55,046 bases of DNA, from contig LFTI01000060.1 of NCBI GenBank assembly GCA_001513285.1, forward strand, positions 1-55,046. The letters run 5' to 3'. Made by a program: the position numbers and the translations under genes. Source of the stretch: Rikenellaceae bacterium DTU049 (lineage in GTDB: Bacteria; Bacteroidota; Bacteroidia; Bacteroidales; DTU049). Below the pieces are notes generated by a model. That model searched no databases. It was not told the origin of the DNA and worked only from the letters and a program-made list of their open reading frames with translations. Below, piece after piece: positions 8,215 to 50,716 of this stretch (positions are counted from its first letter, which is position 1; the number at the start of each line of letters is the position of its first letter).

Positions 8215-8233
8215 GTAAGAAATTTAAAAATAG

Positions 8234-8583
8234 GGTTCTATAACGTTTATTGTGAGTAAATTTTTTAACTGTCCAATTGTTATTTATTGTCCACAAATGC
8301 ACACAAATGAACACAAATAAGCACAAATTAATAAATTCAATTCCAAAATCCTTTAATCCCACAAATCCCAGTTCAGACAATTCACCCCGTGAGATATAAA
8401 ATAAAAGATACATTCAAAGTATAATAGTAGTTATCTCACTGGGTAAATTTCTATCATCCTTCGTGTTCTTTGTGTCTTCTTTGAGAACTTTGTGGTTAAT
8501 ATTTAAGAGTACAATAATAAATAAAATTCTTTTTTTTAAATTACTTTTTTTTATTCTTTACCTATTTAAAACGTTATAGAACC
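8234..8583. mobile_element. MITE-like inverted-repeat element, copy B
   Basis: The 350-bp element starts GGTTCTATAACGTTTATTG and ends with the inverse AAACGTTATAGAACC. It is flanked on both sides by AAAAATAG (8226-8233 and 8584-8591), a candidate 8-bp target duplication. The interior has TTTGTGT-type phrases shared with the other copies and an imperfect dyad (CCCCGTGAGATA at 8384-8395 against TATCTCACTGGG at 8432-8443). No transposase or other coding sequence is inside, so it must be non-autonomous if mobile. It fills most of the 474-bp gap before 8660. Confidence 0.7.
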
Positions 8584-8591
8584 AAAAATAG

Positions 8592-11494: not shown

Positions 11495-13054
11495 ATGAAA
11501 ACCATTAAATTTTTATTATTATTCATTGTGGGAGTAATGATATCTAGCTGCACTATAAATAACTATTATACACAGAGTCAGCCCTATGACGATGTTTACT
11601 ACAATCCTAATATTCATCAATATCCCGATAACAATGCACAAAATCAAGATTATCAGCAAGATTACCAACAGCAGGATAATCAATATCAGTATAATCAAGA
11701 ATACTATCAAGATCAACCTAACTATTCCGAAACATACACTGATGATAATGGAAATACATATATAACTAATAATTACTATGGAGATTATTATGATTACTCT
11801 TATTCATCTCGTATTCGTAGATTTTACTATCCAGAGCTTGGTTTTGGATATTATGATCCATGGTACACTAATATGTATTGGTATACTTATGATCCATGGT
11901 ATTTTGGTATATCGGTTTACCTAACATATCCTTTCTGGAGACCAGGAATATCATTTTATTGGGGATATTACCCATTTAACTATTATGCAGGATGGTATTA
12001 TCCATATCATTATGGATGGGGATATCCTGGATATTGGCATGGATATAATCATGGCTACTGGGATGGTTTCTGGACTGGTTATTATAATGGATTCTATGGC
12101 TCAGAATATTATTATTATAATCCTTTTGATGTTCATTCAGGCTCTGTTTATTATGGACCTAGAGATTATATTTCTACTTCTACTAGTGGCAGAACTAATC
12201 GTACAATAAATGAAACTCAAACAGTTTTACCTCTGAATAGAACTGTAGCTACTACTCAAACTTTTTCTGAAAGGCTCAGCAGGGCTGGTTACAAACCATT
12301 AGAACAAGTATCAGTTAATAAACCAACAGAATCTTTGCAAAAACAAAATGATAATAATGTCATACAGAGTGGTGTAGGTAATGCTAAAATAGATAACTTA
12401 CAGAAAAAACCTTTAGAAAATAATGCTAATCCTGCTACATCGATTACTAATCAAGCTATTAAACAAGAAAATAAAGATAATACTCAACAACAAATTAATA
12501 AACCTCTAAATAATCAAATCAATATTAGCCAACCTACTCAAATACAAAAACAACCAACTCAGCAAAATATACAATCTCAACCTACTCAACAAAGACCGTC
12601 TACTCAACCTACTAATAATACCCAGCCTATTCAAAGACAACAAAATATTCAACCTACTCAACAGCAAAATATGCAATCTCAACCTACTCAACAAAGACCA
12701 TCTACTCAACCTACTAATAATACCCAGCCTATTCAAAGACAACAAAATACTCAACCTACTCAACAATATCAAAGACAATCTGCTCCAAATACTCAATATC
12801 AAAGACCTCCACAGCAATCTAATTCACAAAATAATCAATCTACAGGTCGTAGCTATACTAGACCTTCTACTAATCAATCTGCACCTGTGCAATCAAAAAG
12901 CTACTCTAACCCTCCTTCACGTAGTTATAGTTCACCGAGCAGCAGTCCGAGTAGATCATCTTCTGGCAGTTCATCTCAATCTAAATCATCTAGCTCATCA
13001 TCCAGCTCTCCACGTAGTTCTAGTAGTAGTTCATCAAGTGGTGGAAGAAGATAA
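11495..13054 (+). CDS. Tyr/Trp-rich, Gln- and Ser-rich repeat lipoprotein
   Basis: From ATG 11495 this is a 519-residue protein. A leader ends in the lipobox VMISSC (C19), so it is lipid-anchored. Residues ~20-70 are rich in Q, Y and D; ~90-220 is extraordinarily rich in Y, W, G and P (for example YYPYHYGWGYPGYW); ~260-450 is a Q/P/N linker containing a 34-residue repeat in tandem; the tail is almost pure serine with K/R and ends SGGRR. No enzymatic domain is evident. Such composition suggests an envelope or surface structural protein. It has a true Shine-Dalgarno site, and the FadL-like porin gene follows after 28 bases. Confidence 0.75.
   Translation: MKTIKFLLLFIVGVMISSCTINNYYTQSQPYDDVYYNPNIHQYPDNNAQNQDYQQDYQQQDNQYQYNQEYYQDQPNYSETYTDDNGNTYITNNYYGDYYDYSYSSRIRRFYYPELGFGYYDPWYTNMYWYTYDPWYFGISVYLTYPFWRPGISFYWGYYPFNYYAGWYYPYHYGWGYPGYWHGYNHGYWDGFWTGYYNGFYGSEYYYYNPFDVHSGSVYYGPRDYISTSTSGRTNRTINETQTVLPLNRTVATTQTFSERLSRAGYKPLEQVSVNKPTESLQKQNDNNVIQSGVGNAKIDNLQKKPLENNANPATSITNQAIKQENKDNTQQQINKPLNNQINISQPTQIQKQPTQQNIQSQPTQQRPSTQPTNNTQPIQRQQNIQPTQQQNMQSQPTQQRPSTQPTNNTQPIQRQQNTQPTQQYQRQSAPNTQYQRPPQQSNSQNNQSTGRSYTRPSTNQSAPVQSKSYSNPPSRSYSSPSSSPSRSSSGSSSQSKSSSSSSSSPRSSSSSSSSGGRR
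12560..12763 (+). repeat. 102-bp tandem repeat, two copies, in coding sequence
   Basis: Copies at 12560-12661 and 12662-12763 are nearly identical (start CAGCAAAATAT versus the same bases) and encode a 34-residue unit containing QPTQQRPSTQPTNNTQ. Being in frame, copy number changes would only lengthen or shorten the linker of the lipoprotein. Confidence 0.8.
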
Positions 13055-18175: not shown

Positions 18176-19915
18176 TTATTGAATTTTAATATGTAATTCT
18201 TTTAATTGCTCTTCAGATACAGGAGCAGGAGCCTGCATCATCAAGTCTTTTCCCATATTATTTTTAGGGAAAGCTATCACATCTCTAATGCTATTAAGTC
18301 CGAGCATGACAGCTACTATTCTATCAATACCAAAAGCTATTCCACCATGTGGTGGTGCACCATAATCTAGAGCTTTTAAAAAGAACCCGAATTTATCTTC
18401 TGCTTCTTGATCAGTCAAATTTAATAATTTGAAAATCTTTTTTTGCAAATTTTTATCGTGAATTCTTATAGAACCACCGCCTAGTTCTGCACCATTCATT
18501 ACCAAATCATAAGCATTAGATCTGGCAATAGATGGATTAGTATCTAATAAATCAATATCTTCCTCCAATGGGCTTGTAAATGGGTGATGCGAAGAAGTGA
18601 AACGTTTATTTTCTTCATCCCATTCAAACATAGGGAAATCTATTACCCATAAAGGTTTAAATATATTTTTTTGTATTAAATTATATTCTTTTGCTAAATA
18701 TAGTCTAAAATCTCCTAAAATTTTCAAAGATTTGTCTTTATTACCACTAATAATAAATAGAATATCATTTGTAGAAGCATTTAATGAAACCATGACATTT
18801 TGTAGAAACTCATTAGTAAAAAATTGAGAAATTGAAGATTTGATTTGACCATCCACATATCTAATGTATGCAAGTCCGCTGCCGCCTACTTGAGGATTTT
18901 TTACCCATTCAGTGAATTTATCTATATGTTTGCGTGATACTGATGGTTGATTAGCTAGTAATAATCCTCCGATATATTCTGATTCATCAAAGATTTTAAA
19001 TCCATTACCTTTTAATTTATCAGATAAATTAATGATAGGCATATCAAAACGAAGGTCTGGTTTATCACTACCATAAGTTTCCATAGCTTCTTTATAAGTA
19101 AGCCTGGGAAAAGTAGGCAAATCAATATCGAGTAATTTTTTAAAAAGATTTTTCATCATATTTTCGAATAGATTTAGTATGTCTTCTTGCTTTACAAAAG
19201 ACATTTCACAATCTAACTGTGTAAATTCAGGTTGCCTATCTGCTCTGAAATCTTCGTCTCTGAAACAACGCACTATTTGAAAATATCTATCCATGCCAGC
19301 AAACATCAATAATTGCTTCAGTAATTGAGGAGATTGAGGTAAAGCATAGAAATTACCAGGATTTAATCTAGATGGCACAATGAAATCTCTAGCACCTTCA
19401 GGAGTACTTTTGATTAGAAAAGGAGTTTCTATTTCTAAAAAATCTTGTTCGCTGAGGAAATTTCTGATAGATAAATTAAGCTTATGCCTAAAAATCATTG
19501 TGTCTTTCATCACATTTCTACGAAGATCTAAATATCTATATTGCAATCTCATCTCTTCGCTACCATCAGTATCATCTTCTATAGTAAAAGGCGGAATTTG
19601 AGAAGAATTAAGCACCATTAGCTCTTCTACATCGATTTCTATATCACCTGTTGGCATTTTAGGATTTTTATTACTTCTCTCTCTGACAGTACCAATGACT
19701 TGTATCACATATTCTCTACCTAATTGTTTAGCTCTTTGATACAATTCAGGCTTATTATTAGCATCGAAATATATTTGAGTAGTGCCATAGCGATCTCTAA
19801 GATCGATAAATAATAATTTACCCAAATCTCTAATATGGTGCACCCACCCACATAAACTTACTTGGCTATCTAAATCATTTATTCTGAGTTCTCCGCAATT
19901 ATTACTTCTCAACAT
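18176..19915 (-). CDS. aspS: Aspartate--tRNA ligase
   Basis: The 579-residue protein charges tRNA-Asp (and possibly tRNA-Asn) with aspartate. The N-terminal OB-fold anticodon domain begins MLRSNNCGELRINDLDSQVSLCGWVHHIRDLG, followed by the class II catalytic core with motif 2 FRDEDFRADRQPE (218-230) and motif 3 with GIAFGIDRIVAVMLG near residue 540. The bacterial-type GAD insertion domain between them fits the length. Its start overlaps the end of the TerC gene by 14 bases, so both likely share an mRNA. Confidence 0.97.
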   Translation of the reverse strand: MLRSNNCGELRINDLDSQVSLCGWVHHIRDLGKLLFIDLRDRYGTTQIYFDANNKPELYQRAKQLGREYVIQVIGTVRERSNKNPKMPTGDIEIDVEELMVLNSSQIPPFTIEDDTDGSEEMRLQYRYLDLRRNVMKDTMIFRHKLNLSIRNFLSEQDFLEIETPFLIKSTPEGARDFIVPSRLNPGNFYALPQSPQLLKQLLMFAGMDRYFQIVRCFRDEDFRADRQPEFTQLDCEMSFVKQEDILNLFENMMKNLFKKLLDIDLPTFPRLTYKEAMETYGSDKPDLRFDMPIINLSDKLKGNGFKIFDESEYIGGLLLANQPSVSRKHIDKFTEWVKNPQVGGSGLAYIRYVDGQIKSSISQFFTNEFLQNVMVSLNASTNDILFIISGNKDKSLKILGDFRLYLAKEYNLIQKNIFKPLWVIDFPMFEWDEENKRFTSSHHPFTSPLEEDIDLLDTNPSIARSNAYDLVMNGAELGGGSIRIHDKNLQKKIFKLLNLTDQEAEDKFGFFLKALDYGAPPHGGIAFGIDRIVAVMLGLNSIRDVIAFPKNNMGKDLMMQAPAPVSEEQLKELHIKIQ

Positions 19916-32275: not shown

Positions 32276-32294
32276 GGTTCTATAACGTTTATTG
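32276..32294. repeat. Solitary end of the inverted-repeat element family (copy C)
   Basis: GGTTCTATAACGTTTATTG, identical to the left end of element B, lies 8 bases after the rluD stop without a partner end within the gap. It is probably a remnant of an element. Confidence 0.55.
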
Positions 32295-37983: not shown

Positions 37984-38262
37984 GGTTTCTATAACGTTTT
38001 ATATGGAAAAGATTAAAAAGAGTAATTTTATAAAAATGAATTTTATTTTTAGACGGTTAAATATTAACCACAGAGTTCACAAAGAATGCACAAAGAACAC
38101 AGAGAATGATAGAATTAAAATGGTTATAAATGGCACTTTGTTCATCCTGTTAAATGCAAAGCAATTCCGCTTATGCGGAATTATTTAACAGGATAAACTT
38201 TGTGTAATGTCTTAGTGTTATTTGTGGTAAAATAATTTACCCACAATAAACGTTATAGAACC
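37984..38262. mobile_element. MITE-like inverted-repeat element, copy D
   Basis: The 279-bp element begins GGTTTCTATAACGTTTT and ends ATAAACGTTATAGAACC. The interior carries CACAGAGTTCACAAAGAA-type phrases also found in copy E. A nested hairpin (arms ATCCTGTTAAAT at 38144-38155 and complement at 38183-38194; inner arms AATTCCGC at 38163-38170 and complement at 38175-38182) lies in the middle. No clear target duplication is visible. A 61-codon open frame inside is not considered a gene. It fills the gap between pyrI and pfkA. Confidence 0.65.
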
Positions 38263-50461: not shown

Positions 50462-50472
50462 TCAAAATAAAA

Positions 50473-50658
50473 GGTTCTATAACGTTTTGAGTTGGTAAGG
50501 ATTAAAAAATAGTAATTTTACAGTTGAATATTAACCCCAGAGTTCTCAAAGAAGGCACTAAGAACACAGAGAATGCAAATATCACTTTGTGAACTTTGTG
50601 TAATAACATTGTGCCCTTTGTGGTAAAATAATTAACCCACAATAAATGTTATAGAACC
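50473..50658. mobile_element. MITE-like inverted-repeat element, copy E
   Basis: The 186-bp element begins GGTTCTATAACGTTTTG and ends ATAAATGTTATAGAACC. It is flanked by AAAATAAAA on both sides (50464-50472 and 50659-50667), a 9-bp candidate target duplication. The interior shares the CAGAGTTCTCAAAGAAGGCA-type phrases with copy D. No coding sequence inside. It lies between the glycosyltransferase gene and the T9SS protein gene. Confidence 0.7.
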
Positions 50659-50716
50659 AAAATAAAAGTATTGAATAATTAAGAAAAAAATTTGCAATTT
50701 TGTAAAAAATATAATT

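Follow-up and report, generated by a model that had tools for sequence, protein, structure and literature searches.

The 55,046-nucleotide stretch of contig LFTI01000060.1 from Rikenellaceae bacterium DTU049 that was analysed here (the window) carries three complete copies of a short inverted-repeat element, all on the plus strand and all with GGTTCTATAACGTTT ends, as a sequence-only reading of this DNA had claimed. Element B (8234 to 8583, 350 bp) has both ends exact and is flanked by an 8-bp duplication, AAAAATAG, at 8226 to 8233 and 8584 to 8591; element C (37984 to 38262, 279 bp) has no clean duplication and contains a nested palindrome; and element E (50473 to 50658, 186 bp), a deletion derivative of the GxxExxY cassette described below, lies between 9-bp repeats, AAAATAAAA, at 50464 to 50472 and 50659 to 50667. 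The direct repeats that the same reading had placed around elements B and E are exact, and the two further occurrences it had listed are also real, one being cut by the contig start (element A, 1 to 182, no strand assigned, with its end at 168 to 182) and the other a solitary end (32276 to 32290, plus strand). The window contains 11 matches to GGTTCTATAACGTTT at up to three mismatches, where chance would give 2.03, and none of 100 shuffles reached 11; the matches at 18461, 25155, and 41404 are weak, lie within ORFs, and were rejected as chance. The copies are intergenic and can fold as single-stranded DNA (z of -3.3 and -5.7), and an Rfam search of the window gave no match. The palindrome in element C (about 53 bp, at approximately 38157 to 38212, no strand assigned) has the form CCTGTTAAAT..GCGGAATT..ATTTAACAGG, with its outer parts arranged around ATTCCGC/GCGGAAT, and makes up the central hairpin of the computed fold. 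Further palindromes are nested in elements at 1 to 24 and 8386 to 8455 of the window and at locus L068 near C87:51175-51195, and two of the nested forms, CCCTGACC-TATAGGTCAGGG and ACCCCGTGAGATA...TATCTCACTGGGT, look like additional small repeat families. Elsewhere in the window, a predicted ORF region contains a tandem pair of 102-bp copies with 97% identity (12560 to 12763).

The high copy number anticipated from five occurrences was borne out in the window's own genome assembly (metagenome-derived, 104 contigs totalling 1.54 Mb, 64% complete), which holds 43 exact ends and 91 ends with at most one mismatch in the 13-mer core, against 9 for a reversed control. Several of the ends listed genome-wide are close to contig starts, as expected, because repeats break assemblies. 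About 70 element matches were found in the 97% complete genome G003. Among the 59 genomes searched, exact ends occur in 4 of 5 congeners and in none of the 53 genomes outside the genus, to which the family is therefore confined within that sample. Pairing of ends in the window's genome and its congeners, with three spurious pairings dropped, gave 80 elements of 106 to 922 bp, some of which are orthologous copies of a single insertion in two species. The elements are short and transposase-free, the window copies measuring 186 to 350 bp and most copies in the genus 106 to 608 bp.

That these elements are transposed DNA is supported by target duplications, by one empty site, and by differences in site occupancy between congeners. 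Of all 83 pairings, spurious ones included, 23 had flanks that agreed exactly over 8 bp, whereas shuffling of right flanks among elements gave an expectation of 0.66 (maximum of 5 in 2000 partner shuffles); at up to one mismatch, the observed and expected numbers were 35 and 3.8. Exact matches at 5, 6, or 7 bp in the same element set showed no excess over expectation. The duplicated 8 bp are AT-rich and mostly intergenic. A recognisable duplication is missing in about half of the elements, which we read as decay. The clearest site comparison is that of the copy at 50473: contig C309 of the congener G004 reads AATC-AAAATAAAA-ATATTG, with a single AAAATAAAA in the sequence AATCAAAATAAAAATATTGAATAATTAAG, where the window has AAAATAAAA, 186 bp, and a second AAAATAAAA, the difference including the 9 bp; this copy is also absent from G001 and G002. 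The insertion at 8234 is common to G005, with an identical duplication, but measures 213 bp there and 350 bp in the window, and this interior difference suggests an exchange between copies after insertion. The site of the copy at 37984 is occupied in G004 (215 bp) and unoccupied in G005 and G001. Its window version has the extra palindrome of about 53 bp relative to the orthologous G004 copy, so that the palindrome would have been either inserted in the window copy or lost; the unoccupied sites differ by about 20 nucleotides, which counts against the explanation favored below, as does the missing duplication. The survey thus returned duplications far above chance and a clean empty site, whereas the sequence-only reading had named random flanks and a lack of empty sites as the outcome that would speak against transposition.

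The origin of the copies can be followed to gene-bearing versions with the same ends. In the window's genome, a 579-bp cassette (C73:34008-34586) has MITE ends and an intact 126-amino-acid GxxExxY gene, which scores 132.4 bits against TIGR04256 (curated cutoff of 35) and 128.1 bits against PF13366 (curated cutoff of 22). The cassette occupies the same site in G004, the two genes differing in 8 codons, 6 of them silently. Both of its arms are kept in 73 of the 80 elements, and at least 10 nucleotides of its 3' coding end in 49 of 80, some elements retaining up to 68 nucleotides together with the start region. Element E contains the 5' arm at 50520 to 50575 (TTAACCCCAGAGTTCTCAAAG...CACAGAGAATG, plus strand), which matches the C73 arm, and the 3' arm at 50579 to 50641 (CACTTTGTGAACTTTGTGTAAT...CTTTGTGGTAAAATAATTAACCC, plus strand). 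Since arms and 3' coding remnants have been kept, the MITEs are mostly internal-deletion derivatives of the gene-bearing cassette. The TTTGTG phrases that had been noticed as shared in spite of length differences are real and correspond to the cassette arms (TTAACCACAAAGTTCTCAAAGAAGGCACAAAGAACACAGAG 5' of the gene and CTTTGTGAACTTTGTGTAATATCTTTGTGCTCTTTGTGGTAA 3' of it), but the cassette ancestor and the arms themselves had been missed, and the phrases are not specific to the genus.

Larger passengers are carried between the same ends as well. G005 has a second, different GxxExxY gene, 31% identical, whose 922-bp element is flanked by an exact 8-bp duplication. In the window's own genome, a 2356-bp copy at C24:11646-14001 (L065:1147-3502), flanked by an exact 8-bp duplication of TTAAATAT, encodes a 556-amino-acid repeat protein with a T9SS sorting domain; we regard the latter as a shell of MITE type that transports the gene of a secreted protein. 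Both copies have a passenger gene in place of a transposase between IS ends and, by their exact 8-bp duplications, moved as a unit, which is the make-up of a mobile insertion cassette. As far as MIC231 is described where it is cited (PMC6542083), the likeness lies in IS ends around a passenger gene with the transposase absent, whereas the passengers here are nuclease-like GxxExxY or T9SS-sorted repeat proteins, the ends are of ISL3 type, and a large MITE family has been derived. The region C16:14990-17522, considered as a 2.5-kb autonomous element, proved to be two adjacent MITEs.

The gene in the cassette encodes a full-length protein of the GxxExxY family (TIGR04256/PF13366, PDDEXK_3) with the conserved motif and the catalytic D, E, and K; in 44 sequences, D67, E77, and K79 are invariant. 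A structure model built from 44 homologues (pLDDT of 93.9) adopts a PD-(D/E)XK nuclease fold, its closest structures being Cas4 SSO0001 (Z of 9.9), restriction-type nucleases (Z of about 8), and archaeal Hjc (Z of 7.3). No match was obtained with the model in Foldseek at E<0.001, with the sequence against solved structures, or in PADLOC and PHROGs. The fold class is thus supported and a specific relative is not; the resemblance to archaeal Hjc, Cas4-like, and lambda-type PD-(D/E)XK nucleases is one of predicted fold, without a sequence match to solved structures. Our guess is that the protein may cut a hairpin or cruciform of its own arms.

The family has been described as proteins only, and what we add is its flanking inverted word-repeat arms. 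When 84,980 genomes were scanned by protein alignment, at least 80 GxxExxY loci were found, and the arm statistics are drawn from the loci listed, which are mostly from Bacteroidota, with single cases from metagenome-assembled genomes labelled Planctomycetota, Pyrinomonadaceae, Ignavibacteria, Cyanobacteria, and Methylobacter. Most of these listed loci have inverted word-repeat arms on both sides. The 220 bp before and the 220 bp after the gene have a mean inverted similarity of 30.7, compared with 15.1 for windows 1.2 to 1.4 kb away, and with 200-bp flanks the median is 26 for GxxExxY and 15.5 for other ORFs of the same loci (Mann-Whitney p of 2.8e-19). In an independent sample picked by HMM score, the means were 25.2 and 12.9, and 14 of 29 loci were individually significant (p<0.01); by this measure, the arms are common but not universal. 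Within the order, one search found GxxExxY in 53 of 99 genomes. The arm words, among them CACAAAG, CGCAAAG, CACAGAG, CACGGAG, CACAATG, CACATAG, and ATTTGTG, vary between copies within one genome, and nevertheless the two arms of one locus match each other better than arms taken from different loci (30.7 versus 19.3; 0 of 5000 permutations). A GxxExxY gene in G002 (L088, C210, 1330 to 2010) lies between direct, not inverted, hairpin-like units ending in GTTCAGACAATA, which would be a second repeat type attached to the family. A literature search found no description of the arms and no link of GxxExxY to repeats, the papers that name GxxExxY treating other topics, and a search with the repeat words themselves returned nothing recognisably relevant.

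Vertical descent of the arms can be followed at one site, between genes that we read from the sequence as argG and argC and in one family (f20). There, GxxExxY is present in seven species that form one clade (7/7 monophyletic, support of 0.997), and the arms vary between species and match within each copy (27.8 versus 17.5; 4 of 5040 permutations). Among other species, this site has no insert in some (G229 and G170, with spacers of 13 to 25 nucleotides) and gene-less arms in others, and in G172 what look like the last GxxExxY codons have been kept. No target duplication was recognisable for the module on comparison at argG-argC. The pattern is that of a single insertion clade followed by losses, i.e., of decay and not of transposition. 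A further GxxExxY gene (L289) also lies just upstream of an apparent argC, but on a separate branch of the tree, and the spot has therefore been occupied at least twice.

The matching of arms within a copy could be explained by either of two processes: (i) selection on pairing and (ii) homogenisation by template switching. If the latter operates, through template switching or inverted-repeat gene conversion, the match could be a by-product without function, a possibility that we take seriously while placing it on the doubtful side. Template switching does homogenise the arms of inverted repeats in yeast (PMC8604942), the arm words are free to vary between copies, and at argG-argC the arms changed jointly during vertical descent, all of which agrees with homogenisation. 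On the other hand, the arms recur at GxxExxY in many lineages and not at other ORFs of the same loci, as the medians given above indicate.

With no transposase inside the elements, an external mover had been called for, and an ISL3-family transposase is the likely one. A degenerate ISL3 domain (PF01610, E of 7.6e-17) lies on contig C427 of the congener G005 between inverted ends AGTTCTATAACGGATAGTGTGGGTAAT and GGTTCTATAACGCTTTAAGTGGGTAATT, and two further identical ISL3 end fragments were found at contig ends of the same genome. The ISL3 ends GGTTTTATAACGGATAGTGTGGGTAA and GGTTCTATAACGCTTTAAGTGGGTAA pair one-to-one with the MITE consensus ends GGTTCTATAACGTTTATTGTGGGTAA and GGTTCTATAACGTTTTGTATGGGTAA, 22 of 26 terminal bases being identical at each end; in 30 ISL3 loci taken from further genomes of this order, MITE-type ends were absent. 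ISL3 elements also duplicate AT-rich 8-bp targets, as in the transposon Tn7546 with its duplication AAAATAAG (PMC9782665), and a 187-bp MITE of Microcystis has ends matching ISL3 and 8-nucleotide duplications (PMC11448079). On this evidence, an ISL3 transposase was taken as the mover; as the genus yielded no intact ISL3 copy and remnants in G005 only, this is a role that we infer. No ISL3 transposase was found in the window's 64% complete assembly, and neither ISL3 nor GxxExxY in G003, despite its many element matches. Next to the degenerate copy in G005 (C427:1-770, L110) lies an ORF that resembles a different kind of transposase and, judged by eye, may be IS1595/ISXO2-like. By their ends and 8-bp duplications, the outer elements are correctly placed as an ISL3-type MITE family, a known kind: they share with the Microcystis MITE the ISL3-matching ends, the 8-nucleotide duplications, a length below 400 bp, and many copies, and differ from it in the end sequence (GGCTCTTCG there, GGTTCTATAACG here) and in that most copies here come from a gene-bearing cassette and not visibly from a transposase element (PMC11448079).

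Other movers are less convincing. It is unlikely that a transposase of another family moves the elements and that the ISL3 remnants are passengers or contamination; the 8% contamination of G005 and the degeneracy of the remnant would allow for it, but contig C310 carries an ISL3 end together with a genus-type MITE end, and each of the two ISL3 ends separately matches its own MITE end. Still harder to sustain is the view that the GxxExxY protein itself, in place of the ISL3 transposase, moves the GGTTCTATAACG-ended elements, even though it is the sole gene within the 579-bp and 922-bp versions and has a predicted nuclease fold: GxxExxY genes elsewhere are without GGTTCTATAACG-type ends, G001 and G003 have elements and yet no GxxExxY was found there, and the ends are those of an ISL3 element. 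To our knowledge, PD-(D/E)XK nucleases by themselves are not associated with 8-bp duplications, which also counts against this role. REP/BIME repeats, which are single-hairpin units moved by a RAYT (a Y1 tyrosine transposase), are an unlikely model for the outer element, given the 8-bp duplications and the ISL3 ends. A regulatory or structural intergenic repeat that never transposed, to which the intergenic position and folding of the copies might point, is scarcely credible in view of the 8-bp duplications and the congener site differences, and the empty site already contradicts it.

The explanation that we favor, and consider very probable, is therefore that of MITEs moved in trans by an ISL3-family transposase and descended from a mobile-insertion-cassette-like GxxExxY ancestor. 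The events that we infer would have followed in this order: (i) a gene for a PD-(D/E)XK-fold protein, flanked by inverted arms in a module older and wider than the genus family, would have come to be enclosed with its word-repeat arms by ISL3 ends; (ii) an ISL3-family DDE transposase would recognise the GGTTCTATAACG...GTGGGTAA ends and act in trans on the non-autonomous copies, each insertion producing an 8-bp duplication of target DNA that is AT-rich and mostly intergenic; and (iii) the gene would mostly have been lost through internal deletion, with ends and arms retained, larger passenger versions existing alongside. Within a copy, the arms stay matched as their sequence drifts, probably because they fold into a hairpin or cruciform that serves the element or its nuclease.

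To conclude, the ISL3 MITEs are of a kind already known, and the novel part is the GxxExxY arm module, for which the mechanism just outlined is a proposal. More tentatively, and with somewhat less than even confidence, we suggest that small genetic elements of a widespread and so far undescribed class may be built around GxxExxY genes, with a PD-(D/E)XK nuclease gene in the loop of drifting but co-matching arms, that gene-less derivatives may account for many of the CTTTGTG/CTCTGTG/ATCTGTG intergenic repeats ubiquitous in bacterial genomes, that the nuclease may act on a cruciform or hairpin into which its own arms fold, and that in this genus ISL3 ends captured the module and amplified it as MITEs. 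With intermediates still present, the genus offers a direct view of a gene-bearing cassette being whittled into a MITE family. GxxExxY, a family of unknown function, gains a recurrent genomic anatomy, that of a gene flanked by inverted arms, and a common and unexplained type of intergenic repeat is tied to a nuclease gene, so that both become testable.
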